Below, one piece after another: positions 5,131 to 38,072 of a stretch of 38,344 nt of DNA. A model generated the notes under the pieces. That model did not search any database, was not told the DNA's origin, and was given only the letters and a program-made list of their open reading frames with translations. Source of the DNA: a virus. The stretch's first letter is position 1. Every line of letters begins with the position of its first letter. The translations under genes were made by a program, and so were the position numbers. The stretch is taken from the IMG/VR virus record IMGVR_UViG_3300010354_000224, positions 1 through 38,344 of that record; one strand, 5' to 3'.

Positions 5131-6984
5131 TTATCGTACACTGCGCATGACCACGATTGCTGTGCCCTCGAAGTCATTTTTGTTGTGAGCTTGGGTTACC
5201 TGACGGTATTGCATTTGGATGTTTTCAACCACAACAGCAAAGGTTGAGGTATTTTCCTGGTAGGAAACCACCCTAGGGGTGTCTACAAGGTCCCTAAGTA
5301 GGCCCATTTCCTGGTCTACGTCTTGCCAGTATTCACGCCCGTTGATATTCAGTTTGTGATGCATTAGCAAAGGGACAGTGAAAATTTGCGATCGAAGCGG
5401 AGCGGCGTAAGCCCTGGCCATCCATCTAGTCAGCGTTGGGCCCTCAATCAACGAGGCAGCCCTATTCAGGGTTACCTTGATCTCGGCTTCAAATATCTTT
5501 GCCTCAAGCCCGTCAATTGTTTTTTCTCGGGCCCCAGACGTGTCAAATGTAGAGAAATCTGTGAAATCCCCCCCATCAGAGGCAATTGAGGTAATCACTG
5601 AACCTTCCAATGGGAGGCATCTGAGGTCCAGCTTGGGGATGAATTTGGCATCTGGGACACCCCAACGGTAGATCCCGGAACGGAGATAGCCGGAAGAGAC
5701 AAGGTTCGTCGCGTGTGGGGTAAACACACCGACACCCGACACGGTGAACAGCGGCTTGCCCTGGAACTCGTGGATTGCTTGCACGGTTCCCTGAGCTGTT
5801 GCCATCAGATCGGAAGCATACGCAGGCTGGTTCGGTGATATGAATACCGAAACATCCATACGTCCGATGCCCGTGGAAGTTGAGTCAAAGTTAGACCAAG
5901 CGAAGTAGACATACTGACCGATTCCGGCCATTGATTGGACCGAGGCGCCTGTCTGCACAAGGGGTCCAACGGTTAGATTCCCGTCACTATCAGTAGTACA
6001 AAAACGGAATCCGGTGGCTGTGCCAAGGATGATGTAGCTCAGATATCCGTAAATTGACTTGACGATTTCACCAAGCGGAAGCTCGGCTGCTGCGGTCGGA
6101 ATATCCAGTGCAGTGCCATCCGCCTTGATCGAAGTCTTGTAGATGATGCTGGTGTTGCCTGCATATCCTGCCGCGTAGATGTGGGTTTGTCCCGCAGCGA
6201 AACCAACCCATGTCCAGTTAGTGTTCGGATGCGTGTACAGGGCGGATGGGTTGTTGGCAGACGACCCTGCTGCGGTGGTGATGTTCCAAATCTTGCGCTT
6301 GTCAACACCCTGCCCTGCAACCATGAGACGGCCTCGGACGTAAGCAAGAACACCAGCCTCAATGCCAGTGATGTAGGCAGATGAGGTGGAAATGCTGGCG
6401 TTTGTCTGGTCGATGTCGCCGTTGGCGTACGAGTAGAACACGTTGTAGCCGTCGGACGTGATCGAATACAGGGCGGATGCGGCGGTCCCTGTGACGGTGG
6501 TGACTGTGTTGAAATCGGTGGTGTACTTGACGTTTTGCCCGTCAGTTCCATATAGGCGACCGTCAGCAGTGCACGCATACAGGTTGGTTCCAGATGTCGG
6601 GTACACGTTCGTCGTGTCTTTCAACAACGAAAGACGACCCTTGGTCCATGGGTCCACACCTTTGCTCGCATAGAAACGGTAAGGTTCCGCATCTGCAGTA
6701 TCCGAGTACTGTTGCCCTGCACCGTAATGCCATGATGACTGGGAGCGACGCCAAAGCCCTTGTGGATTTAACGCACTTTCTCCAGGCTCTGTTGATTGGT
6801 CAACTGAATCTCGGACTCTGGCATCGTACTGGCGTTGAAATTCGTTCGAGCGAAGATCAAGCATGTACGGGCGGCCATTGATCGCCACAGGAAAAACGTC
6901 AGGAACAAGCTGCGTCGCTCCGGTACCGGTGTAATAGCCAGGTGCCGGGAAGTACGCGCTATTAAAACGCGTGAGCGCAGCCAC
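5131..6984 (-). CDS. Probable tail nozzle or hub protein (beta-propeller-like), 617 aa
   Basis: The large, Cys-poor, beta-rich protein starts MAALTRFNSAYFPAPGYYT. The middle (about 130-430) has repeated blade-like segments such as NLYACTADGRLYGTDG, YNVFYSYANGDI, HIYAAGYAGN and YVYFAWSNFD, which suggest a beta-propeller. It directly follows the 294-aa candidate adaptor, the order seen for adaptor and nozzle genes (gp11 and gp12 of T7-like podoviruses). I infer a nozzle or tail-hub role from size, position and blade pattern. I cannot show sequence homology by eye. A siphovirus distal-tail protein is the main alternative. Confidence 0.6.
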   Translation of the reverse strand: MAALTRFNSAYFPAPGYYTGTGATQLVPDVFPVAINGRPYMLDLRSNEFQRQYDARVRDSVDQSTEPGESALNPQGLWRRSQSSWHYGAGQQYSDTADAEPYRFYASKGVDPWTKGRLSLLKDTTNVYPTSGTNLYACTADGRLYGTDGQNVKYTTDFNTVTTVTGTAASALYSITSDGYNVFYSYANGDIDQTNASISTSSAYITGIEAGVLAYVRGRLMVAGQGVDKRKIWNITTAAGSSANNPSALYTHPNTNWTWVGFAAGQTHIYAAGYAGNTSIIYKTSIKADGTALDIPTAAAELPLGEIVKSIYGYLSYIILGTATGFRFCTTDSDGNLTVGPLVQTGASVQSMAGIGQYVYFAWSNFDSTSTGIGRMDVSVFISPNQPAYASDLMATAQGTVQAIHEFQGKPLFTVSGVGVFTPHATNLVSSGYLRSGIYRWGVPDAKFIPKLDLRCLPLEGSVITSIASDGGDFTDFSTFDTSGAREKTIDGLEAKIFEAEIKVTLNRAASLIEGPTLTRWMARAYAAPLRSQIFTVPLLMHHKLNINGREYWQDVDQEMGLLRDLVDTPRVVSYQENTSTFAVVVENIQMQYRQVTQAHNKNDFEGTAIVVMRSVR

Positions 6985-6986
6985 GG

Positions 6987-7871
6987 CTACTTCCTAAACA
7001 GGATTGGGTACTGTGCCTTAAGCCTTCCGGATTCGGCAATAATCCGCTCTCTACGCATTCTCATGATATTCGCGACGGATCCAGCAATTGCACCTGCAGG
7101 TACTTCTTCCGCGCGGCGCGTGTCGCCTTGAGCTTCGGTGAAGTTGCGCTTGATTTCACGTGCACCCATCATGCGCAGGATGACACCCATCTCAACGATG
7201 TCATCGCACGTTGCTGGCAAAAAGCAGTTGGTCGTCAGATCCGATGCTTCGTTGGTTGCACGAACAAACGGTGCCCGGTAGCGGACGCGCACATCTGAGG
7301 CCATGACAGACTCATCGAAAACAAGCGTGTTGCCTGACGCAAAGTCGGTTGTGGGCAGACCTGTCTGCAAGCGAACATGGCGCAGTACCGGATGTTCGTC
7401 TGAGACGTACCTAAAGCGCACATCGATTAGACCAAGAATGGTTGTCGATCCGGTAATGTTGATCTGCCTGTCAGCTCCGTTGTAATCAAGATCAACACTG
7501 ACAACACGAAACAAACCGTTAGCCGTAGACGAAAGATCGTCAAGCTCCGAGTTAAGCGCATCAAACATCTGAGCCCTGGGAAACCTAGGGCTTAGCGTTA
7601 GGACCGCACCAGACGAATGCGACGCCGCAGTAGACCCTGCGTAGCCGCGTTCTACTGTGAGCGTCTTCGACGAAACGTTAGCTTCCCAAACGTAGAAGAG
7701 CTCTGAGTCAATCTCAAATACAGAACCAGCACGAAACCCGCCGAGATCGTAAGTGCACACAACAGCTGTGTCATCGCTGTCGATGCTCGACGCCAATTTG
7801 TTCCGCTCTTCAACGGTCCCCGCCAACATTTGACGCGACGCTCGATTGAGAATCGTCGCTACGGTTGTCAT
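6987..7871 (-). CDS. Probable head-tail adaptor or tail connector protein, 294 aa
   Basis: The start is ATG at 7871, immediately after the stop of the last tiny basic gene (TAAATG). It begins MTTVATILNRASRQMLAG. The first 100 residues hold a small beta domain (ELFYVWEANVSSKTLTVERG) like that of the 185-aa protein. The rest is mixed helix and strand and ends with a basic helix (MRMRRERIIAES). Placement after the head genes and just before the 617-aa protein fits a tail adaptor. Function is inferred from position and size only. Confidence 0.6.
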   Translation of the reverse strand: MTTVATILNRASRQMLAGTVEERNKLASSIDSDDTAVVCTYDLGGFRAGSVFEIDSELFYVWEANVSSKTLTVERGYAGSTAASHSSGAVLTLSPRFPRAQMFDALNSELDDLSSTANGLFRVVSVDLDYNGADRQINITGSTTILGLIDVRFRYVSDEHPVLRHVRLQTGLPTTDFASGNTLVFDESVMASDVRVRYRAPFVRATNEASDLTTNCFLPATCDDIVEMGVILRMMGAREIKRNFTEAQGDTRRAEEVPAGAIAGSVANIMRMRRERIIAESGRLKAQYPILFRK

Positions 7872-8012
7872 TTAGTAGGTGTAACCACCGTACCCAGGAA
7901 AGCTTCCTGCCTGAGCACGAGCAGCCTTATTCGCCTTTCGTGACTTCTTCGTGGTCTTAGGGGCTCCAGCCATACTCTTAGTTGGCTTCTTGCCCTTTGA
8001 CTTGCCCTTCAC
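7872..8012 (-). CDS. Tiny lysine-rich protein with Tyr/Gly tail, 46 aa
   Basis: The likely start is GTG at 8012, which overlaps the stop of the upstream mini-gene (GTGA). This gives 46 residues, about one quarter Lys or Arg, ending SFPGYGGYTY. An internal ATG at 7973 would give 33 residues (MAGAPKTTKKSRK). Neither start has a clear ribosome binding site, so translational coupling is likely. It is the last of seven consecutive small basic genes before the adaptor gene. No known fold can be named. The charge suggests contact with DNA or acidic capsid surfaces. Confidence 0.5.
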   Translation of the reverse strand: MKGKSKGKKPTKSMAGAPKTTKKSRKANKAARAQAGSFPGYGGYTY

Positions 8013-8134
8013 TTCTTGGAGGCCTTCTTCTTCTTCATGCCGCCCTTCTTTGAGCCGTACTCCATCATGCGCTCCTTGGGACCTTCGCCCATCTCGTGCA
8101 TACGGTTCTTCTTGCTCATCTTGCCCTTAGCCAT
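8009..8134 (-). CDS. Tiny lysine- and methionine-rich protein, 41 aa
   Basis: Translation from ATG at 8134 gives 41 residues: start MAKGKMSKKNRMHEMG, middle ERMMEYGSKKGG, and a Lys-rich end with KKKKASKK. The start overlaps the stop of the upstream gene (TAATG). It contains six methionines and about fourteen lysines. This is one of the seven-gene basic cluster. It is too short for confident family assignment. Coupled overlaps on both sides support it being translated. Confidence 0.55.
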   Translation of the reverse strand: MAKGKMSKKNRMHEMGEGPKERMMEYGSKKGGMKKKKASKK

Positions 8135-8256
8135 TACTTCTTACCCTTCTTGCCCTTGCCCATCTTCATGGGCTTGCCGGTCTTCTTGGCCTCAGCCTTA
8201 GCCATGGCCATACCCTTCTTGCCGTACGAGAACTCTTTGTTTCCAACCTTAGGCAT
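8134..8256 (-). CDS. Tiny lysine-rich protein, 40 aa
   Basis: ATG at 8256, preceded by GAAAGGACAAGTC (AAAGGA about 6 nt upstream), gives 40 residues starting MPKVGNKEFSYGKKGMAMAK and ending GKGKKGKK. The opening MPKVG.KEF.Y..KGM recurs in small basic proteins of aquatic phages, in my recollection. About a third of residues are Lys. It belongs to the basic mini-gene cluster and is translationally coupled to the next gene. Confidence 0.6.
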   Translation of the reverse strand: MPKVGNKEFSYGKKGMAMAKAEAKKTGKPMKMGKGKKGKK

Positions 8257-8274
8257 GACTTGTCCTTTCGTGTC

Positions 8275-8547
8275 CTACCACTTTACCTTATCAGCCCAGT
8301 AAGCAGCAGACATTTTGCCCTTGGCGATGTTCTTTGCATGACGTGCCTTGAAGGACTCGCGGCGCTTGCGGTAGGCGGCAGACTCGCCAGCTTTCTTCGG
8401 TGAACCGCTGACACCCTGCTGACCGAAACGGATCAGCTTCACCTTGCTGCCTTGTTTGGCTAACACGGCATGAGACTTCTTGGCGTTGGGCGTCCGCTTC
8501 GGCTTGTTGTACCCAGCGAAACGCTCACCCCTGTATTCGATAGCCAT
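8275..8547 (-). CDS. Small basic protein (DUF6321-like), 90 aa
   Basis: The start is ATG at 8547, overlapping the stop of the 78-aa gene by one base. Key segments are GYNKPKRTPNAKKSHAVL, KVKLIRFGQQG, and RRESFKARH. The KxVKLIRFG and R-K-S-F-x-ARH pattern resembles a family of small basic proteins in marine and freshwater phages that I recall as DUF6321. The usual cysteine after ARH is absent. The function of that family is unknown. It is part of the seven-gene basic cluster downstream of the capsid genes. Confidence 0.7.
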   Translation of the reverse strand: MAIEYRGERFAGYNKPKRTPNAKKSHAVLAKQGSKVKLIRFGQQGVSGSPKKAGESAAYRKRRESFKARHAKNIAKGKMSAAYWADKVKW

Positions 8548-8783
8548 TAGCGATACCTCTTGGTTTTCTCCGCAACCTTCTTGGGCTGCTTGACAAACTG
8601 CTTGCCAGCTTTATTCCCCTTGGCTTTGGCCTTGTTTGTTGCGGCTTTCTCTGCCGGGGAAAGGGCATTCCACGCGGCATCGGGCAGATAACGCTTCTTG
8701 CCCTTGGACGGCTTCCCATCCGAGGTGCGCCACTTCTGCGCTGTCCAGTTCTTCAGCGACTTCTGGGACTTGGCAAGGGCCAT
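8547..8783 (-). CDS. Small basic protein (DUF5872-like), 78 aa
   Basis: The protein contains SLKNWTAQKWRTSDGKPSKG, RYLPDAAWNALS, AATNKAKAKGNK and QFVKQPKKVAEKT. The K-W-x2-Q-K-W-R-T-x2-G-K start and YLP motif match small basic proteins of aquatic phages that I recall as DUF5872. The family role is not known. The start ATG at 8783 overlaps the previous stop by one base, and the stop overlaps the next start, so the cluster is translationally coupled. Confidence 0.7.
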   Translation of the reverse strand: MALAKSQKSLKNWTAQKWRTSDGKPSKGKKRYLPDAAWNALSPAEKAATNKAKAKGNKAGKQFVKQPKKVAEKTKRYR

Positions 8784-8971
8784 TACTTGTAGCCTCCGCC
8801 AGCCTTCTTGTATTCGCTGGCCAGCAGCTGAGCCTTACGGGCAGACCATTCACCGGGATCTCCGCCCTTGCTACCAGCCTTAATCTTGTTGAACAGGCGT
8901 TTGCGCATCTCGGGCTTCGTGTAGTTGCCAGCCTCGTTAACCCGAGACTTTGCCTTCTTCTTGGCTGCCAT
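8783..8971 (-). CDS. Small basic protein, 62 aa
   Basis: The protein starts MAAKKKAKSRVNEAGNYTKP and ends with ARKAQLLASEYKKAGGGYK. The central AGNYTKP.MRKRLFNKIKAG, then WSARKAQ, is a recurrent motif of small basic phage proteins often found beside the DUF5872-like one. It is helix-prone and strongly basic. It has one-base overlaps with both neighbours. The function is unknown. Confidence 0.68.
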   Translation of the reverse strand: MAAKKKAKSRVNEAGNYTKPEMRKRLFNKIKAGSKGGDPGEWSARKAQLLASEYKKAGGGYK

Positions 8972-25443: not shown

Positions 25444-26415
25444 CTACTTGCCGAACTCTCGGCGCATCCGGCTCCGCATCAGCTGATTCTTTAAAATTTC
25501 GGCTCGTTCTTCCTGGAACCCAGGCTCTTTCCAAATCGAACCCTGCATCTCTTCCACGGAGTCGCGGATCAAGCTGCCTTTTGCCCGCAGATACCGTTTG
25601 GCCAAACTGCTTTCGGTGCTTCCACCAAAACGTTCAACCTGGTCCGCAATGTCTGCAAGCTTGGCGTTCTGCAGCAAATCCTTGTTGATTTGCGCACGAG
25701 TCATTGGGGCCCTGGAGGCAGCATCAACAACCTGTTCGTACATCGGGTTGTAGTCCTGATACGTCTCAATGAAGTCGGCGCGGAAACGACGCAGACTTTG
25801 ATTCCTCTTCTGGGCCTCCCGCAACATTTGCTGGGATGCCTCTCTTGTTCTCCCTCCGGCAGATGCTGCCTTAAACAACCTTCTACTCTCAGCCTGAGAT
25901 TCCTCCAAAGCACCCAAAGCCTTCCGAAGCTGACTCGAAGAAGTCTGGGCAGAGCTGGTCATCATCTTCAACTGGCGGCCCATGGCATCCATCTCGGCTG
26001 CAACCGTCTTACGAAGAACCGGGGTATAACCCTTCACAACCGCACGAACTGCCGGGTTGTTGACAACCTTGCCGACCCCCTTGGCAACAACACGGCCAGC
26101 CGTCGGAGCAACAATATCCACCGCAGCCCAAGCAGTATTACTAATTGCCTCACCCTTGCCAGAAACCGGAAGATTCGGATTTTTCCCAATTGCACGACCA
26201 GCCGCGTTGATATACGGGTTAGTAAAAGTACGAGCCTGAGAATTAGACCACCCAACAACACCCTCCACCACACCCCTGGCAGCACCACCCAACCAGCCAC
26301 CAGCAGTCTCACCAAGCTCAAGAATCGGATTCTTCTGAACATTGGTCCCAGACTTACGACCAGCACGACCAGACCGTGCCCGGTTCAACGCTTCCTGTCC
26401 GGATTTCTTTGCCAT
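25444..26415 (-). CDS. Basic helical protein, first gene of the packaging block, 323 aa
   Basis: Two ATG codons are close: 26427 (MFFFMAKKSG) and 26415 (MAKKSGQEALNRARSGRAG). I prefer 26415, because a -10-like TATGTT at 26428-26423 would put the transcript start at about this ATG. The N-terminal third is Gly/Ala/Val-rich (GGWLGGAARGVVEGVVGW) and resembles the middle of the 453-aa protein. The C-terminal two thirds are long basic helices (SQLRKALGALEESQAESRR, AQKRNQSLRRFRADF). No family is recognised. By position and composition it may be a packaged or ejected virion protein. Confidence 0.6.
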   Translation of the reverse strand: MAKKSGQEALNRARSGRAGRKSGTNVQKNPILELGETAGGWLGGAARGVVEGVVGWSNSQARTFTNPYINAAGRAIGKNPNLPVSGKGEAISNTAWAAVDIVAPTAGRVVAKGVGKVVNNPAVRAVVKGYTPVLRKTVAAEMDAMGRQLKMMTSSAQTSSSQLRKALGALEESQAESRRLFKAASAGGRTREASQQMLREAQKRNQSLRRFRADFIETYQDYNPMYEQVVDAASRAPMTRAQINKDLLQNAKLADIADQVERFGGSTESSLAKRYLRAKGSLIRDSVEEMQGSIWKEPGFQEERAEILKNQLMRSRMRREFGK

Positions 26416-26422
26416 GAAAAAA

Positions 26423-26460
26423 AACATAGCACAGGTTGTCGCAACTTGACCGACATGCTA
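26423..26460 (-). promoter_or_regulatory. Candidate promoter of the packaging and ejection operon
   Basis: On the minus strand CAACCTGTGCTATGTT precedes the 323-aa gene. TGCTATGTT is an extended -10, and GTTG-CGA-CAAC forms a small inverted repeat just upstream. The sequence CAACC(T)TGTG(C/T)TAT is shared with the scaffold promoter at 11955-11981. If this is the -10, the mRNA would begin almost at the ATG at 26415, that is, be leaderless. There is no good -35. Confidence 0.4.
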
Positions 26461-26785: not shown

Positions 26786-26821
26786 AAAAAAAAAAGAGGG
26801 CCGAGGGGCTTTCGCCCCTCG
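26786..26821 (-). terminator. Strong rho-independent terminator
   Basis: On the minus strand an 8-bp perfect stem CGAGGGGC, GAAA tetraloop, GCCCCTCG, is followed after GCCCTC by ten T residues. It begins 18 nt after the stop of the 93-aa gene at 26839. It closes the early or middle transcription unit and separates it from the packaging block. Confidence 0.88.
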
Positions 26822-26838
26822 ACCCCCTCGAATCGAGA

Positions 26839-27120
26839 TCAGATCTCGGTGAGCACCTTACCGGTGAAGAGTGTCCGCTTGAGACCCTCTTTGTCCGTGT
26901 GCGTCCCCTCTTCCTTGAGGATCTCGACCAACTGGAATGCGCCTCGACTCTTCGAGACCCAGACCAGATCGCCCACGGTCACCTTGCCGACCGCTTGACC
27001 GTCCGCAACCGTGACGTGCCACGGTACGTCCTTGTCCTTCGGGTTGGCAGAGTGCCACTTGCCTTTCGGGAAGAGTGAGAGCGCCTCTTTGAGCGCCTCA
27101 CGTGCCTTGTTTGTGTCCAT
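26839..27120 (-). CDS. 93-aa protein, downstream paralog of a tandem pair
   Basis: The start ATG at 27120 is set by GAAGGAGG 9 nt upstream; longer readings upstream are unsupported. It begins MDTNKAREALKEALSLFPKG and contains NPKDKDVPWHVTVADGQAVG, VWVSKSRGAFQ and GTHTDKEGLKRTLFTG. It is about 70% identical by hand count (65 of 93 positions) to the product at 27288-27569. The VTVGDLVWVSKSR segment looks like a small beta-barrel. I do not recognise the family. It has its own upstream element and ends just before a strong terminator. Confidence 0.8.
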   Translation of the reverse strand: MDTNKAREALKEALSLFPKGKWHSANPKDKDVPWHVTVADGQAVGKVTVGDLVWVSKSRGAFQLVEILKEEGTHTDKEGLKRTLFTGKVLTEI

Positions 27121-27287: not shown

Positions 27288-27569
27288 TCAGACTTCCGAC
27301 AAGATACGCACCGTAAACAGCGTGCGCTTCAGTCCTTCCTTATCGGTATGGGTTCCTTCCTGCTTCAGCACCTCACACACTTGGAAGGCTGAACGGGACT
27401 TACTCACCCAAACGAAGGTGCCCACAGTCACCTCGCCTGCTGCTTGCCCATCGGCAACAGACACATACCACGGTGTGTCCTTATCCTTCGGGTTAGTGCT
27501 GTACCACTTGCCCCTAGGGAGCAGTCCGACTGCCTCCCTAAGTGCTGCCAATGCCTTACTGTTATCCAT
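27288..27569 (-). CDS. 93-aa protein, upstream paralog of a tandem pair
   Basis: The start ATG at 27569 has GAAGGAGG 9 nt upstream, exactly as in the paralog. It begins MDNSKALAALREAVGLLPRG and contains NPKDKDTPWYVSVADGQAAG and VWVSKSRSAFQ. The block GTHTDKEGLKRTLFT is identical in both copies, marking the most constrained part. The length is the same 93 residues. The function is unknown. The pair arose by a tandem duplication of about 451 bp that included the control region. Confidence 0.8.
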   Translation of the reverse strand: MDNSKALAALREAVGLLPRGKWYSTNPKDKDTPWYVSVADGQAAGEVTVGTFVWVSKSRSAFQVCEVLKQEGTHTDKEGLKRTLFTVRILSEV

Positions 27570-27704: not shown

Positions 27705-27777
27705 AAAGGGAGAGGGCTACGAGCAGGTTGTAAGGAGGTTCAGCATGGTTCTGCCGCCTACCCGTAGCCCTCCCTTT
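27705..27777 (-). promoter_or_regulatory. Long branched hairpin at the end of the MoxR operon
   Basis: On the minus strand AAAGGGAG-GGCTACG pairs with CGTAGCCCTCTCCCTTT across a loop of about 41 nt. The left arm overlaps the stop codon of the 50-aa gene. The loop itself can partly fold and contains ACCTCCTTA, identical to the 16S rRNA anti-Shine-Dalgarno tail. There is no U-run. It could be a terminator of the bulky type, an mRNA stabiliser or a regulator of the AAGGAGG sites downstream. Confidence 0.55.
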
Positions 27778-27929
27778 CACTTGCTTACCTTCCCGACATA
27801 CCAGATGCCTAGGATCAGAGCACAGCCAAGCACTATTCGTGCGTACAGTCCTGCGCCTTCGTAGCGTGTGACTGGTGCTGTGAGCACAATAAGAGTGCCA
27901 ATAAGCAAGCCGCTTGGTTCAGTCGTCAT
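27777..27929 (-). CDS. 50-aa two-helix membrane protein, last gene of the MoxR operon
   Basis: Minus-strand translation from ATG at 27929 gives 50 residues ending in TGA at 27777-27779. It begins MTTEPSGLLIGTLIVLTAPV. Two hydrophobic segments (about 7-20 and 31-46) flank a short polar turn (TRYEGAGLYAR). GGAGG lies 9 nt before the ATG, inside the end of the 221-aa gene, which it overlaps by 11 nt. The good ribosome binding site and clear membrane pattern support a real gene. The function is unknown; membrane tethering of the operon's products is a possibility. Confidence 0.6.
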   Translation of the reverse strand: MTTEPSGLLIGTLIVLTAPVTRYEGAGLYARIVLGCALILGIWYVGKVSK

Positions 27930-28584
27930 CTCCCATGTCCTCCATGCGTTCCCGTACCTTGTCGGCTAGGGCTTTGTAGGCGGTTGGGTAGTTGAGCCTG
28001 AGGATTTGTGGTGTTGCTGTGAAGTTCCATTGGGCTTGTGCTAGTTCCTTGGAGTGGTCGGGTACTGCGTCTTGGGGGACTGGTGCCGTGTGGTATTCGG
28101 TCACTTTGTCTCCTGTGGGTAGTACCTTGGTGACTGTTAGGGAGCCGCCTCCTACGAGCATGTAGATGGTTGTGGCTTGGTGCTTGTGTGCCGTGAGGGT
28201 TGCCCACGATCTGCCTTCTGCCCCTAGGTCTGCGATCATTGCCCCTACTTTGTTGTCCAAGTCGGCTATGGCTTGTGACCTTGAGTCAAAGGTGTATGGC
28301 GTGCTGACGCTTCCGCCTGTCCAGCCTTCTGCCTCTGCTTTGTCTAGTGCCTTGCCTTTGACTTGTTCGCTGTTGAGGGCATGGTCGATGTCCACTTCCC
28401 CGATGGGGATCTCTTTGATCATGAAGAAGAGCACATTGTCGCCTGAGACAGAGAACTCTTGGTGGATCTCTGTCACCATCTGCTCTGTGAGAAGGACGCT
28501 TTCACGTTTCTTCTCCTCTTTCAGCTGACTTGCTGCTTCCTCCATGATGCTTTGGACTTGGGACATGATGTCGTTGTCGCTCAT
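27919..28584 (-). CDS. Unknown protein of the MoxR-VWA operon, 221 aa
   Basis: The start overlaps the VWA stop (ATGA). The N-terminus is a helical, probably coiled-coil stretch (QVQSIMEEAASQLKEEKKR). A mixed alpha/beta core has NVLFFMIKEIP, IADLDNKVGAMIADLG and TTIYMLVGGGSLTVTKVLP. The tail is acidic (MEDMGDDD). Its overall plan (helical start, then LFFMI or LFLIS strand, then a beta core) resembles the 242-aa protein at the other end of the operon, so the two may be distant paralogs. No family is recognised. Its tight coupling to the VWA gene suggests a shared complex. Confidence 0.72.
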   Translation of the reverse strand: MSDNDIMSQVQSIMEEAASQLKEEKKRESVLLTEQMVTEIHQEFSVSGDNVLFFMIKEIPIGEVDIDHALNSEQVKGKALDKAEAEGWTGGSVSTPYTFDSRSQAIADLDNKVGAMIADLGAEGRSWATLTAHKHQATTIYMLVGGGSLTVTKVLPTGDKVTEYHTAPVPQDAVPDHSKELAQAQWNFTATPQILRLNYPTAYKALADKVRERMEDMGDDD

Positions 28585-30032
28585 ACCTGTACTCCTTTGC
28601 TTGTCTCAAACTTCTTGCGCTTGGGTCGTGAGCCGTTCTGGAAGGATCGCAACAGGGTTGCGGCTTCCTCAGGGCGTCTGACGATGTGAATGTTGTGCCT
28701 TCCCGCATACATCAAGCACCAGTCACGCAAGGTGGTGGAGCATATGTCGCCTGCGCCAGTCACATGGGTGTCGGTGATCCATACGACAGGCTCGTTGTGC
28801 CTGCGCATGGACATGCCGACCTCTAGTGCTGGTCCATCTACGCTGTTGTTGCCGGGGAAGTGCGGCAAGGTGCTTGTGCGCCTGCCTCTGGAAGCCACGA
28901 GCCAGATGTTGGGTTCTCCAACACCGCCGCCACCTGAGTAGCAGATGACTGTGGCACCACAAGCAGCGTCCATGATCATGCGCAGGTCGTTGTCGTCAAG
29001 GCTCATGGAGCCTGAACAGTCCACAACGACCACGCCGCCTATGGCTCGTGTCTTGCGAGCAAACACTCTCTGCTCTGGATCGGTGTCCTCACGGGCAATG
29101 AACTTGATGCTCTTGCCGTACGACATTGGCACAAGTTTGCGTCCCTTGCGACCCGTGTGAGGGATCGTTAGGGGCAACTTCTCCAAGATCGGAGTAGCCC
29201 ACCCGTCAATGGCAGGGACGATCTGACGCATTACCCGTTTGGGATCTGCGCCATGAGGGAACCTTCTGCCATTGATATCTTGCTCGCTGCGACGGTCAAG
29301 GTTGCCCTTGCCCATTGCTTCACGTGCTTGCTTGCGCTTGGACGCTTCTTCCTCAGCCATGCGGTTGAGGTGATCTGCGACCCTGTGCTGACCCCACTCC
29401 ACCTCGCGCTTGATACACATCACAAGGCGCTCATACGCATTGTTCGCACTGCGAGTTGCGTTCTTGCCCTCCTTGTTGATGTAATACTGAACCTTGTACG
29501 GTTCACGCTCTGCGTAGAAGCCCAAGTCCCTGTAGTTGGACTCAAGGATCTCTCGCACATGAGGCGTCTTGATCATCTCAAGCAGTTGATACTGCGCTTG
29601 TGTACCCACATAGGACAATGCCGCAGCCATTGCGCTTGGGCTTGGATCAGGTCGATCAAGCAGTTCTGCCAATGGCGTAAGGTTGACTGTGCCGATAGTG
29701 GGATCATCGCCAAACACCTTTGTGTAAAGGGTGCTTGCGACAATGCGCTCTGCCGTACTGACTGCCTCAATAGAGGTGTTGGTGCGATGAGCGAACTTGC
29801 GCTTGTTCACTAGCCCGTAGCGAGAGAGCATGAGACCGTAGCGACGTAGCCGCCGCATGGCATCACCTTCCTCCATTGGGGCAGAGTACTCATGCGCCTG
29901 TGTCGTAGGCGTCAAGGTCACAACTACACCGTCAAGGCTGGTGGGTAGAGCACCGCTTGACTCAAATGTGTTGTGCTTGGCGCCCTTGCGCACAGAGAGA
30001 GCCTCTGGTGCGAAGCGTTGCGGTGAAGTCAC
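28581..30032 (-). CDS. VWA-domain protein (CoxE/CobT-like partner of MoxR), 483 aa
   Basis: The C-terminal third is a von Willebrand A domain. The MIDAS motif is VVVVDCSGSMS (about residues 337-347), and a second metal-binding loop is WITDTHVTG (about 421-429), so metal-dependent binding should be intact. The N-terminal 300 residues are helical and basic (MRRLRRYGLMLSRYGLV, REVEWGQHRVADHLNRMAEE). This layout fits proteins encoded with MoxR-type ATPases, such as the ViaA/CoxE/CobT-like groups. The start overlaps the ATPase stop (ATGA), so both are made together. In T4-like cyanophages a similar pair is annotated cobS and cobT, with no proven cobalamin role. Confidence 0.85.
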   Translation of the reverse strand: MTSPQRFAPEALSVRKGAKHNTFESSGALPTSLDGVVVTLTPTTQAHEYSAPMEEGDAMRRLRRYGLMLSRYGLVNKRKFAHRTNTSIEAVSTAERIVASTLYTKVFGDDPTIGTVNLTPLAELLDRPDPSPSAMAAALSYVGTQAQYQLLEMIKTPHVREILESNYRDLGFYAEREPYKVQYYINKEGKNATRSANNAYERLVMCIKREVEWGQHRVADHLNRMAEEEASKRKQAREAMGKGNLDRRSEQDINGRRFPHGADPKRVMRQIVPAIDGWATPILEKLPLTIPHTGRKGRKLVPMSYGKSIKFIAREDTDPEQRVFARKTRAIGGVVVVDCSGSMSLDDNDLRMIMDAACGATVICYSGGGGVGEPNIWLVASRGRRTSTLPHFPGNNSVDGPALEVGMSMRRHNEPVVWITDTHVTGAGDICSTTLRDWCLMYAGRHNIHIVRRPEEAATLLRSFQNGSRPKRKKFETSKGVQV

Positions 30033-30757
30033 AGGAGACCTGCCTCACTTGCGATGATCGCAAGGCTGTCGGTCATGGACTCATGAACCTCAGGGAATAC
30101 CACTTGGGCGCAAGCACGAAGGTCTTTGGACTTCTCGTACATGGCGTGGAACTCCACAAAGGAGCGCAACGAGTAACGGAACTGTGCGTCCTCGCTCGTG
30201 AACGTCTCTGCCAACTGGCGGAGATAGATGGGCAAGGAGTCAATAGCCTTGGGGTTTGGCGTATTGACCGCACAGCGCACCGTCAAACGGTCAAGGACTG
30301 CTGGCGCAAGATCCTCTGGCATACCGTTCATAGTGGCGACAACGGAGAAGCCAGAGTGCGGCTTGACCACTTCGCCAGTATCGGGGTTCTCCCACGAGGC
30401 GCTTGCTTCGGTGTCCAAGAGCATCATCAACTTGCTCTCAACGTCACCGTTGATGCGGTTGATCTCATCGACCACGAGCCGTGCGCCTTCGCGCCAAGCC
30501 CTGATGCCAACTCCCTCGTGGAACTTGAGAGCACCAGATGCCTCACGGCGCCAGAAGCCCTCAAGGTCTGAGGAACTCATGTCCTCCGTACAAGCAAGAC
30601 GGTACGCCTTGTTGTTGTTTGTCGCATGGGTCAAGCCGAAGTACGTCTTGCCTGTGCCGGGGAGACCATAGAGAAGCACTCTGTTTGAGTGCTCAATGGC
30701 GAACTCCGCCTTCTGCCAAGCAGTCATGCTGCCTGTGGTTGGTGTGATGTTACTCAT
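30029..30757 (-). CDS. MoxR/CobS-type AAA+ ATPase, 242 aa
   Basis: A compact AAA+ ATPase. Walker A GLPGTGKT is at residues 31-38, Walker B LVVDEIN at 94-100, sensor-1 VVATMN at 139-144 with N144, and an arginine-finger candidate is in LDRLTVR shortly after. The Walker-B-following loop and ATMN sensor match the MoxR/CobS group, which remodels partner complexes with VWA proteins. The start has AAGGAGG 9 nt upstream. It lies directly before the VWA gene, as in RavA-ViaA and CbbQ-CbbO systems. The substrate in this phage is unknown: virion assembly, metal insertion or host-protein remodelling are all possible. Confidence 0.88.
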   Translation of the reverse strand: MSNITPTTGSMTAWQKAEFAIEHSNRVLLYGLPGTGKTYFGLTHATNNNKAYRLACTEDMSSSDLEGFWRREASGALKFHEGVGIRAWREGARLVVDEINRINGDVESKLMMLLDTEASASWENPDTGEVVKPHSGFSVVATMNGMPEDLAPAVLDRLTVRCAVNTPNPKAIDSLPIYLRQLAETFTSEDAQFRYSLRSFVEFHAMYEKSKDLRACAQVVFPEVHESMTDSLAIIASEAGLL

Positions 30758-31478
30758 TGCTGTTGTCCTCCTTTGGACTGTTGTTGCTTGCTACAGGGAA
30801 CACTTCGTCCCCTGCTCTCTGGCGTTGCGCCATGAGATCTTGGTAGAGAGCCTGAAAGATCTCAGGCTCTGCGTCTTTCATGATCTTGGGTGCCACGTAG
30901 AAGGTCACCATTGCGTCGATCATCTTCATGTCGCCTTCGTAGTCTGCGGCATGGATCAGTTGCGTAACGACCTCCTTGCTCTCATCTTCCACGAACCTTG
31001 TGGCGACATACACGACATCGCCCATGAGCATTGCGGTGATGAGAACATCATGCTTGGACTTGTCCTGCGTATCAGTAGCCGTAGCACCAACGCGCATGAG
31101 TATGCCATTGGCGTCAAGTGTTGCCACATGAGCCGAAAGGTACTGGTCGCCAAGTATCTCGTAGATGTCTCCGCCTTGTACGAAAGGCGTGATGGAGAGA
31201 AGCGTTGATGGCTCTTCACCTGTTGCGACATTGGGCTTACCTTGTATAAGGCGCACATTGTCTTTGCTCAAGGCTTCATCTTTGAGGGCGCTTGGCACCA
31301 CGCTGATCAAGAACAAGTGGTGGTTCTCGTCAAGGTTCCCCAAGCCTTCCCACATAGAAGCCTCAAGGCGCAAGAACTCATCGCGCAGGTAATCTGTGCG
31401 CTCAGAAGTCATTGCCGCTTCTGCTTCGTTCAGGATCTTGGCAGTCTCAGCCAAGATGTCGTCATCATGCGAGGACAT
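30750..31478 (-). CDS. Unknown protein preceding the MoxR gene, 242 aa
   Basis: The start ATG at 31478 is fixed by GGAGG 6 nt upstream; the longer upstream reading is unsupported. The N-terminus is helical and acidic (MSSHDDDILAETAKILNEAE). The core has HHLFLISVVPSALKDEALS, DIYEILGDQYLSAHVATLD and VLITAMLMGDVVYVATRF. The tail is disordered and Ser/Asn/Glu-rich. It resembles the 221-aa protein at the operon's end in plan, though identity is low. It overlaps the MoxR gene by 8 nt. Not recognised; likely a partner or substrate of the ATPase. Confidence 0.75.
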   Translation of the reverse strand: MSSHDDDILAETAKILNEAEAAMTSERTDYLRDEFLRLEASMWEGLGNLDENHHLFLISVVPSALKDEALSKDNVRLIQGKPNVATGEEPSTLLSITPFVQGGDIYEILGDQYLSAHVATLDANGILMRVGATATDTQDKSKHDVLITAMLMGDVVYVATRFVEDESKEVVTQLIHAADYEGDMKMIDAMVTFYVAPKIMKDAEPEIFQALYQDLMAQRQRAGDEVFPVASNNSPKEDNSNE

Positions 31479-31707
31479 AGTTTGCCTCCATGCGCTGTGC
31501 GCTCTTGGCGCAGTATGCGAACATACCTGCGTCAAAGGACTGTGCCTGCTTGCCGACCCAGACCAGATGCGCATGGTTGCCATCTTTGGCGACCTGCTGT
31601 GATCCCCTCTGAAGCCGCTTGGGGCTAAGGATCACAAACTGGTATGTGCCTGCGTGGTTGTCGCGGTGATCCCACCGATGGACTACCCGAATGTTGCTGT
31701 TGGTCAT
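31465..31707 (-). CDS. Small protein, first gene of the MoxR operon, 80 aa
   Basis: The start ATG at 31707 has AAGGAGG 8 nt upstream and sits 43 nt behind element C. The protein is basic and beta-like: MTNSNIRVVHRWDHRDNHAG, then YQFVILSPKRLQRG and NHAHLVWVGKQAQSF. It ends YVLA and overlaps the next start by 14 nt. There are no cysteine motifs except a single C. I do not recognise it. Confidence 0.72.
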   Translation of the reverse strand: MTNSNIRVVHRWDHRDNHAGTYQFVILSPKRLQRGSQQVAKDGNHAHLVWVGKQAQSFDAGMFAYCAKSAQRMEANYVLA

Positions 31708-31798: not shown

Positions 31799-31823
31799 GC
31801 GGTAGCGGTAGCGGTAGCGCTAC
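31799..31823. repeat. Tandem GGTAGC repeats next to a palindrome
   Basis: Three tandem GGTAGC units on the plus strand run into the 10-bp perfect palindrome GTAGCGCTAC. They lie in the control region of the MoxR operon. CGGTAGCG also occurs once upstream of each 93-aa gene and in the gene-free stretch near 26754, so it may be a protein-binding site. Confidence 0.55.
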
Positions 31824-32035
31824 GTCAGCTGCTTAACGCGCAGCAATGCGTATTCCCGGCTGCGTTCAACAGCTTCGGGTGGTAACCCATGGGCCACACC
31901 ATCGCACAGCCGCGTGATGTAATCACGCAAAGCTGGGCGAATGGTGAGAGCCATGACTAGCAGCTCGGTGAGCACCTCTTCGGCAATCTGCCGGTCGTTC
32001 TCACTGAAGTCAGGGATGTCAACGAGCTTATTCAT
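31820..32035 (-). CDS. Small helical protein, 71 aa
   Basis: I take ATG at 32035 (MNKLVDIPDFSENDRQ), two bases after the upstream stop; the longer Arg-rich reading is unlikely. It is helical throughout (QIAEEVLTELLVMALTIR, AVERSREYALLRVKQL) with a conserved-looking LRDYITRLCDGVAHG. No domain is recognised. It ends at the GGTAGC repeat cluster and is the last gene of the WhiB-containing group. Confidence 0.62.
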   Translation of the reverse strand: MNKLVDIPDFSENDRQIAEEVLTELLVMALTIRPALRDYITRLCDGVAHGLPPEAVERSREYALLRVKQLT

Positions 32036-37259: not shown

Positions 37260-37518
37260 TTCCCGCTTGGTTAAAGCGCTTCCCACGCTTGGCCCCTTCC
37301 TTTTCTGCGTGGAACTTTAGGTGGTCAGTAAGGCGTTCGCCAACGTGATCAACTTTTTCTTCTGTCCGGGCCTGCGACTTGTGCATGATCTTCAGCATCC
37401 CGAGCACGACCTCGTGATCGCGGCTGTTCTCTTTACGGAACCTGTCGAGAAGGGCCACAAGGATCGCTCCCACCGCTGCCACAACGGCAGCGACGACCAT
37501 CGCCCACCCCGCGTCCAC
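37231..37518 (-). CDS. Membrane-anchored coiled-coil protein, holin-like, 95 aa
   Basis: The GTG start at 37518 overlaps the endolysin stop (TAGTG); the alternative is ATG at 37500. Residues 5-25 form one transmembrane segment (AMVVAAVVAAVGAILVALL) followed by a basic turn (DRFRKENSRD). A coiled coil (VVLGMLKIMHKSQARTEEKV, then VGERLTDHLKFH) and a Lys-rich tail follow. Small actinophage proteins of this layout beside endolysins are usually called holins. It may be a second holin or regulator next to the 82-aa protein. Confidence 0.72.
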   Translation of the reverse strand: MDAGWAMVVAAVVAAVGAILVALLDRFRKENSRDHEVVLGMLKIMHKSQARTEEKVDHVGERLTDHLKFHAEKEGAKRGKRFNQAGNAKNTRISK

Positions 37519-38072
37519 TACTCAGCGGCCTTGGACTTTTCTTCCAGCCAATCACGCACTGCCTTGGGGGTCTCATTGCCCGCCACATAGCGCAGATGCC
37601 ACGGCTCGGACTGGACTTCCCACGAGAACCCAAAACGCTCAGCGTTCTTAAGCAACCACTCTAAGCGTTTTCCGCTGGCGTTGGCAATGTCAATGGCAAT
37701 CCCAAGGTTGTGGTTCGAGGTACCCGGCACCGCCATCGGGGCCAGTCCTTTCTTCAGATACCAAGCTTTACCCTTGTAGATCCGGGGCGTCTGCTTCATG
37801 ATTTTCTTGTTCGGCTTGTCCGTGTACCGCGCGTAGAACCCGTACTCTTGCGTTTCAAGGGAGCGGTAGGTGTCTGCTTGAGAAGTAGGCGATAGGTCAA
37901 TGCCTTCAGCGTTTGCTGCAGCGTCCATAGCCTCGTAGGCGTCAGCCGCACAATGGTGTAGGCGGCCCTTGCCTTCAATACCGCGAAGCAGATCCGCAGG
38001 TAGCTCACCCGGCTTGCAATCCTTGAGATGATCACAGAGCTTGACTTTAACAACAGGGTACTTGTCCGCCAT
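37518..38072 (-). CDS. Endolysin, M15 D-Ala-D-Ala carboxypeptidase type (VanY), 184 aa
   Basis: A zinc peptidase that cuts peptidoglycan cross-bridges. The motif SNHNLGIAIDI gives zinc ligands H121 and D128, and EPWHLRY gives E156 (base) and H159 (ligand), matching the VanY/M15 family. The catalytic fold covers residues 55-180. There is no signal peptide, so release needs the holin. There is no separate cell-wall binding domain; the N-terminal 40 residues include two cysteines (C13, C19) of unknown role. The gene starts 2 nt after the holin stop. Confidence 0.9.
   Translation of the reverse strand: MADKYPVVKVKLCDHLKDCKPGELPADLLRGIEGKGRLHHCAADAYEAMDAAANAEGIDLSPTSQADTYRSLETQEYGFYARYTDKPNKKIMKQTPRIYKGKAWYLKKGLAPMAVPGTSNHNLGIAIDIANASGKRLEWLLKNAERFGFSWEVQSEPWHLRYVAGNETPKAVRDWLEEKSKAAE

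Follow-up and report, generated by a model that had tools for sequence, protein, structure and literature searches.

Pairs of a MoxR-type ATPase and a VWA protein are widespread in viruses, and their clients are little known apart from the case of ATV p618/p892. The roles guessed at in the literature extend from synthesis of vitamin B12 to assembly of the virion. Published examples include the ATV pair (reviewed in PMC4124505), Hardycor1 and other haloviruses (PMC7911831), jumbo phages (PMC7824862) and Bacillus phage 0305phi8-36 (PMC2147016); cobST pairs, with a proposed role in cobalamin synthesis, are found in many tailed viruses (PMC8651126). What might such a pair do in a small phage, where it is encoded between two further proteins that resemble each other? 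The case examined here is an IMG/VR phage record of 38,344 bases and about 55% GC, the whole of which is referred to as the window. A first-pass annotation had grouped six of its overlapping genes into one system, with the two look-alike proteins as a possible substrate/adaptor pair, and had offered host takeover, assembly of the particle or anti-defence as its purpose.

The phage and its gene block

The window encodes a large terminase, a portal protein and a major head protein. It also carries a WhiB gene, which suggests an actinobacterial host, and the phage group apparently infects Actinobacteria. This is a freshwater group in which all close relatives are uncultured IMG/VR contigs; the phage record collection held no isolate with a relative of the VWA protein. 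The phage had been described as lacking replication genes of its own. This holds in that no polymerase or helicase was found among the window proteins scanned (a subset of the ORFs), but genes of recombination type, for a RecE-like exonuclease and an SbcD-like phosphoesterase, are present. An endolysin- or tape-measure-like peptidase is encoded at 37518-38072, at the recombination-gene end of the window and distant from the tail genes. An Rfam search gave no match in the module region, and in a promoter scan sites were rarer than expected by chance.

All six ORFs were confirmed on the minus strand at the positions in Table 1, with overlaps of 4-14 bases. The GTG start of the VWA gene overlaps the stop of the ATPase gene, the p242 frame opens further upstream, at 31583, and a G-rich ribosome-binding-like sequence lies just 5' of five of the six ORFs.

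Table 1. Positions of the module genes and of adjoining features in the window
Feature	Position	Strand	Evidence or distribution
71-aa small protein gene	31820..32035	-	12/13 relatives with p221, 0/4 with the pair but without p221, 0/12 without the pair
p80, 80-aa ORF overlapping p242	31465..31707	-	detected in 1/13 relatives, 51% identity there
p242, acidic protein, pI 4.4, p221 paralogue	30750..31478	-	profile-profile match, HMM, AlphaFold2
MoxR-type AAA+ ATPase, 242 aa, AAA module only	30029..30757	-	AAA_5, catalytic motifs
VWA protein, 483 aa, pI 9.6, GTG start	28581..30032	-	phrog_33218, MIDAS DCSGS at residues 338-342
p221, acidic protein, pI 4.7, p242 paralogue	27919..28584	-	AlphaFold2, family profile, co-occurrence
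TM50, 50-aa hydrophobic, probably membrane protein	27777..27929	-	38-56% identity in close relatives
93-aa gene, first of tandem paralogous pair, in the module's transcription unit	27288..27569	-	5/13 relatives
93-aa gene, second of tandem paralogous pair	26839..27120	-	5/13 relatives
Strong intrinsic terminator, 16-bp stem, 8 T	26794..26829	-	ends the module unit before the packaging genes

Every window gene was looked for in 29 long records from relatives, of which 13 have p221, four have the pair but lack p221, and 12 lack the pair. These are metagenomic contigs of 34-41 kb, in which an absence may be truncation. Only the genes for the 71-aa protein, p242, the ATPase, the VWA protein and p221 occur in at least nine of the 13 p221-containing relatives and in none of the 12 that lack the pair. 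The 71-aa gene, missed at first pass, is probably a member of the module. The 80-aa gene was dropped from the system because it is found in a single relative of the 13, so that its earlier inclusion did not stand. TM50 is recognised in close relatives only; small hydrophobic ORFs hold its place in many others, in keeping with the membrane protein originally described there. The tandem 93-aa paralogues directly 3' of TM50 are likewise confined to close relatives as far as they can be recognised. A 327-aa gene at 25444-26427, placed between module and terminase, is nearly module-restricted, occurring in nine of the 13 relatives with p221, one of the four with the pair but without p221 and one of the 12 without the pair. 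Its product is among the fastest diverging, at 28% identity where the terminase is 96% identical, and gave no family match above cut-off.

The ATPase and its VWA partner

The ATPase matches AAA_5 in Pfam (E 8e-19). Across 26 relatives there is little or no variation in its Walker A (GLPGTGKT), its Walker B (DE), the sensor-1 Asn and the Arg finger, which bears out the catalytic motifs read from the window. The VWA protein has no Pfam match of its own but is matched by PHROG 33218 at E 2e-95; the MIDAS residues D338, S340 and S342 and the distal D421 are invariant in an alignment of 30 sequences, so the DxSxS motif is indeed intact. BLAST against 50,697 phage records yielded weak matches for the ATPase and none for the VWA protein.

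The two genes are rarely separated. A VWA gene lies next to the ATPase gene in 121 of 125 distinct loci, mostly within 10 bp, and the other four loci are short of downstream room or, in L081, have an overlapping long frame. Many of these loci were collected with a VWA query; those found with the ATPase query give identical adjacency. A 777-aa ORF in L081 was considered as an ATPase-VWA fusion and rejected, as the two genes sit in different frames in GC-rich DNA, and a long ATPase ORF in L126 was rejected as a spurious extension.

Among solved structures the ATPase profile matches midasin, which comes out on top through its repeated domains, followed by NorQ (3e-13), CbbQ (2e-10) and CobS (9e-5). 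In both NorQD and midasin the VWA partner is seated in the AAA+ ring; in NorQD a finger of that partner enters the pore, and ATP hydrolysis twists it (PMC13036017). The phage pair resembles NorQ-NorD and CbbQ-CbbO in that an AAA-only MoxR ATPase of similar size stands beside a partner with a VWA-MIDAS, NorQ and CbbQ being its nearest bacterial structures by sequence. It differs in that the VWA protein is not recognisable as NorD or CbbO, in its two additional acidic paralogues, and in the lack of a NOR or Rubisco target gene nearby. RavA-ViaA is also a MoxR-VWA gene pair, but RavA has C-terminal LARA and triple-helix domains, whereas the phage ATPase ends after the AAA module.

The CobS/CobT-like pairs of cyanophages and haloviruses (PMC8651126) are phage AAA+/VWA pairs as well, and the ATPase matches the phage CobS family PHROG 249 at E 2e-20. 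The module could on that account encode cobaltochelatase subunits that hijack host CobN for cobalamin, the role proposed for cobST of tailed viruses (PMC8651126). However, the ATPase is nearer to NorQ and CbbQ than to CobS, and the CobT Pfam model matched none of the 30 VWA family members at E 0.1, the best weak match being CoxE; the module was therefore not filed as CobST. The genome here is only about 38 kb, p242 and p221 are not reported for the CobS/CobT-like pairs (PMC8651126), and a cobalamin function gives these two proteins nothing to do. Such a function is very improbable.

The two acidic partner proteins

On profile comparison, p242 and p221 are full-length paralogues. Alignments of 18 p242 and 23 p221 orthologues matched each other in hhalign with a probability of 99.2% (E 1.3e-19, 210 columns), while comparison with the ATPase or VWA profile, as a negative control, gave 0.1-0.4%, and the p221 HMM matches the window p242 over its full length at E 5e-16. 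AlphaFold2 models of p221 (pLDDT 89, pTM 0.83) and p242 (pLDDT 79, pTM 0.73), the comparison called for at first pass, have the same predicted order of elements: a long N-terminal helix, a strand, a small alpha/beta part, two short helices, four strands and two C-terminal helices. The likeness noticed at the outset is thus one of both homology and predicted fold order.

Few proteins outside the group resemble this family. A fold search of the PDB with p221 gave no match, and candidates such as lectins, p32 and capping protein were rejected at a TM of about 0.2. Searches of BFVD led from both proteins to A0A1B0XUJ8, of viral origin, and to a small number of further phage proteins. BLAST of p242 against the 50,697 phage records found nothing, and the profiles of the two families contain no conserved stretches fit for pattern searching. 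No description of the family was found in the open-licence literature. Phage MoxR-VWA pairs have been published before; what appears to be new is the paired acidic partner family. In remote phages an acidic protein of about 300 aa occupies the place of p221, and both families match it in its C-terminal part (79% and 90%, against 0.1-0.4% for controls). Since this protein at p221's place matches both, a p221-like partner is likely to be the older component of the system, with p242 arising later as its paralogue.

The charges of the components are opposed. The p242 and p221 families are acidic, with a median pI of 4.6, while all 30 members of the VWA family are basic (pI 8.8-10.1, median 9.65). 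In addition, distances for p242 and the VWA protein correlate more closely than the terminase background explains (r 0.47 over 12 sequences; permutation p 0.0005, one of six tests). On these two grounds direct binding of the partners to the VWA protein is likely. The proposed substrate/adaptor pair is accordingly a plausible reading, which charge and correlation fit.

MoxR-vWA cores with further partner genes are also known from ternary conflict systems (PMC7159879), in which a third protein such as VMAP joins the pair. By a similar logic the module could serve in conflict with other phages, excluding superinfection, with TM50 or one of the partners as effector; the MoxR-vWA pair plus a third protein follows the published plan, and TM50 is small and probably a membrane protein. 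No VMAP, iSTAND, FtsH or beta-propeller third component was detected in the flanking proteins with Pfam and PADLOC, and neither an effector domain nor an effector enzyme is present. The PADLOC match was limited to a generic AAA, and in Pfam the bpMoxR model scored only 12.6 bits, below its cut-off. We regard superinfection exclusion as improbable.

Distribution and inheritance

Among 44 related IMG/VR phages, the ATPase, the VWA protein and p221 define one clade. Of 27 records with the pair, 22 have p221, and of 18 without it none does; the ATPase is missing in every record that lacks the VWA gene. A tree built on the terminases of 43 records requires two changes of state for the pair and one for p221, so the module is a stably inherited trait of the clade and is not frequently exchanged. 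Homology, predicted fold order, gene order and co-occurrence thus agree in supporting one system with look-alike flanking proteins; different folds, together with a pair not kept with its partners in relatives, would have spoken against it, and neither was found. The motor itself also exists in cells, as related ATPase-VWA pairs without p242 or p221 are found in contigs of actinobacterial MAGs, three of them plainly chromosomal (L136, L137 and L139, at about 6500-8800). The pairs in these three are flanked by MarR/MFS genes and by LysM, NrdR and ImuB genes.

Genes of recombination type are also found near the pair. Downstream of it, 23-24 distant phages (L262-L295) have a conserved 93-aa gene and then an SbcD-like phosphoesterase (phrog_284), often together with a phrog_11717 protein, and in the window the unit comes after the RecE-like and SbcD-like genes. 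These arrangements would suit a remodeller of replication or recombination complexes, of the phage or of its host. The recombination genes are, however, core in relatives both with and without the pair, and for that reason a specific link to them was rejected; a function of this kind is rather unlikely.

In sister phages without the pair, the interval between WhiB and the terminase often contains a C5 DNA methyltransferase. DNA methyltransferases in this interval of pair-less relatives were recorded at 4353-6053 in L041, 3135-5096 in L059, 1800-2981 and 3889-4944 in L057, and 4241-5974 in L032. They are suggestive of a host-conflict island. Mutual exclusion of pair and methyltransferase gave a Fisher p of 0.001, yet only two independent changes underlie it, and the association was not counted as support because it is confounded with phylogeny. 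A gene for a C5 methyltransferase stands shortly upstream of the ATPase gene in two distant relatives (L027 3786-4871, L064 3316-4650).

Position, divergence and the question of a virion client

The terminator between the unit and the terminase operon is the sole strong intrinsic terminator in the whole window on either strand. Its position is kept in most related loci of this half of the clade, L014 being the exception; in the other half, identical criteria detected none. Three loci (L016, L017 and L079) have a further terminator between p242 and the 71-aa gene upstream of it, so that the cassette is bracketed. The terminator groups the unit with early or middle genes, and from its position the module is probably transcribed early.

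The components diverge at very different rates. Identity to the nearest record is 94-96% for the terminase, portal and capsid proteins, 86% for the ATPase, 69% for the VWA protein, 57% for p242 and 49% for p221. The dN/dS values against that record, 0.2-0.5, indicate purifying and not positive selection. A fixed motor with fast-changing partners fits a changing target better than a conserved head.

These observations bear on whether the motor is a virion-assembly chaperone that folds or loads tail or head parts, as has been proposed for other viral MoxR-VWA pairs. ATV p618 is a virion protein that interacts with virion proteins and, strongly, with p892, its VWA partner (PMC4124505), and virion assembly has been proposed for the jumbo-phage pair (PMC7824862); the module here also adjoins the packaging genes. 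The systems differ in composition, since p618, a virion protein, is 618 aa long and has been modelled on RavA, the VWA protein of jumbo phages is fused to a peptidase, and p242 and p221 are present in neither. More to the point, phages with the pair have no virion gene peculiar to them: the other widely kept window genes, including those for capsid and tail, are shared with relatives that lack it, which leaves the machine without a virion client of its own to account for it. The packaging genes lie beyond the terminator that ends the unit, and variation is seen in the partners but not in capsid or terminase. For these reasons assembly is disfavoured, and we consider it unlikely, although the least so of the alternatives; p242 and p221 could themselves be minor parts of the virion. 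Host takeover or anti-defence is left as the likelier purpose.

A proposed host-directed remodelling machine

The reading preferred here, with a probability of roughly one half, is that the module encodes a clade-specific, probably early, host-directed remodelling machine composed of a MoxR ring, a VWA co-chaperone, p242/p221 and a small membrane protein. The ATPase, which we infer to be a hexamer, would turn the VWA protein as in NorQD, and p242 and p221 would bind the latter. The proposed target is a host component; p242 and p221, handled by the VWA protein, would act either as adaptors for target selection or as mobile parts to be loaded onto the target. Hydrolysis of ATP would then remodel the host component, perhaps at the membrane, with takeover or counter-defence as the outcome.

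A more specific version can be offered only tentatively. p242 and p221 may be the two halves of a new adaptor family, of undescribed fold, that makes a MoxR-VWA motor host-directed, for takeover or counter-defence, and that diversifies against the host while the motor stays fixed.

The module is a compact case of a viral MoxR-VWA pair: a stable set of five to six genes, two dedicated partners, and close relatives that lack the pair and share every widely kept virion gene. The contrast with these relatives makes its function directly testable, and it counts against a particle-building role here. The p242/p221 family, for which the p221 search found no structural relative among solved proteins, may serve as a marker for systems of this kind in other phages.
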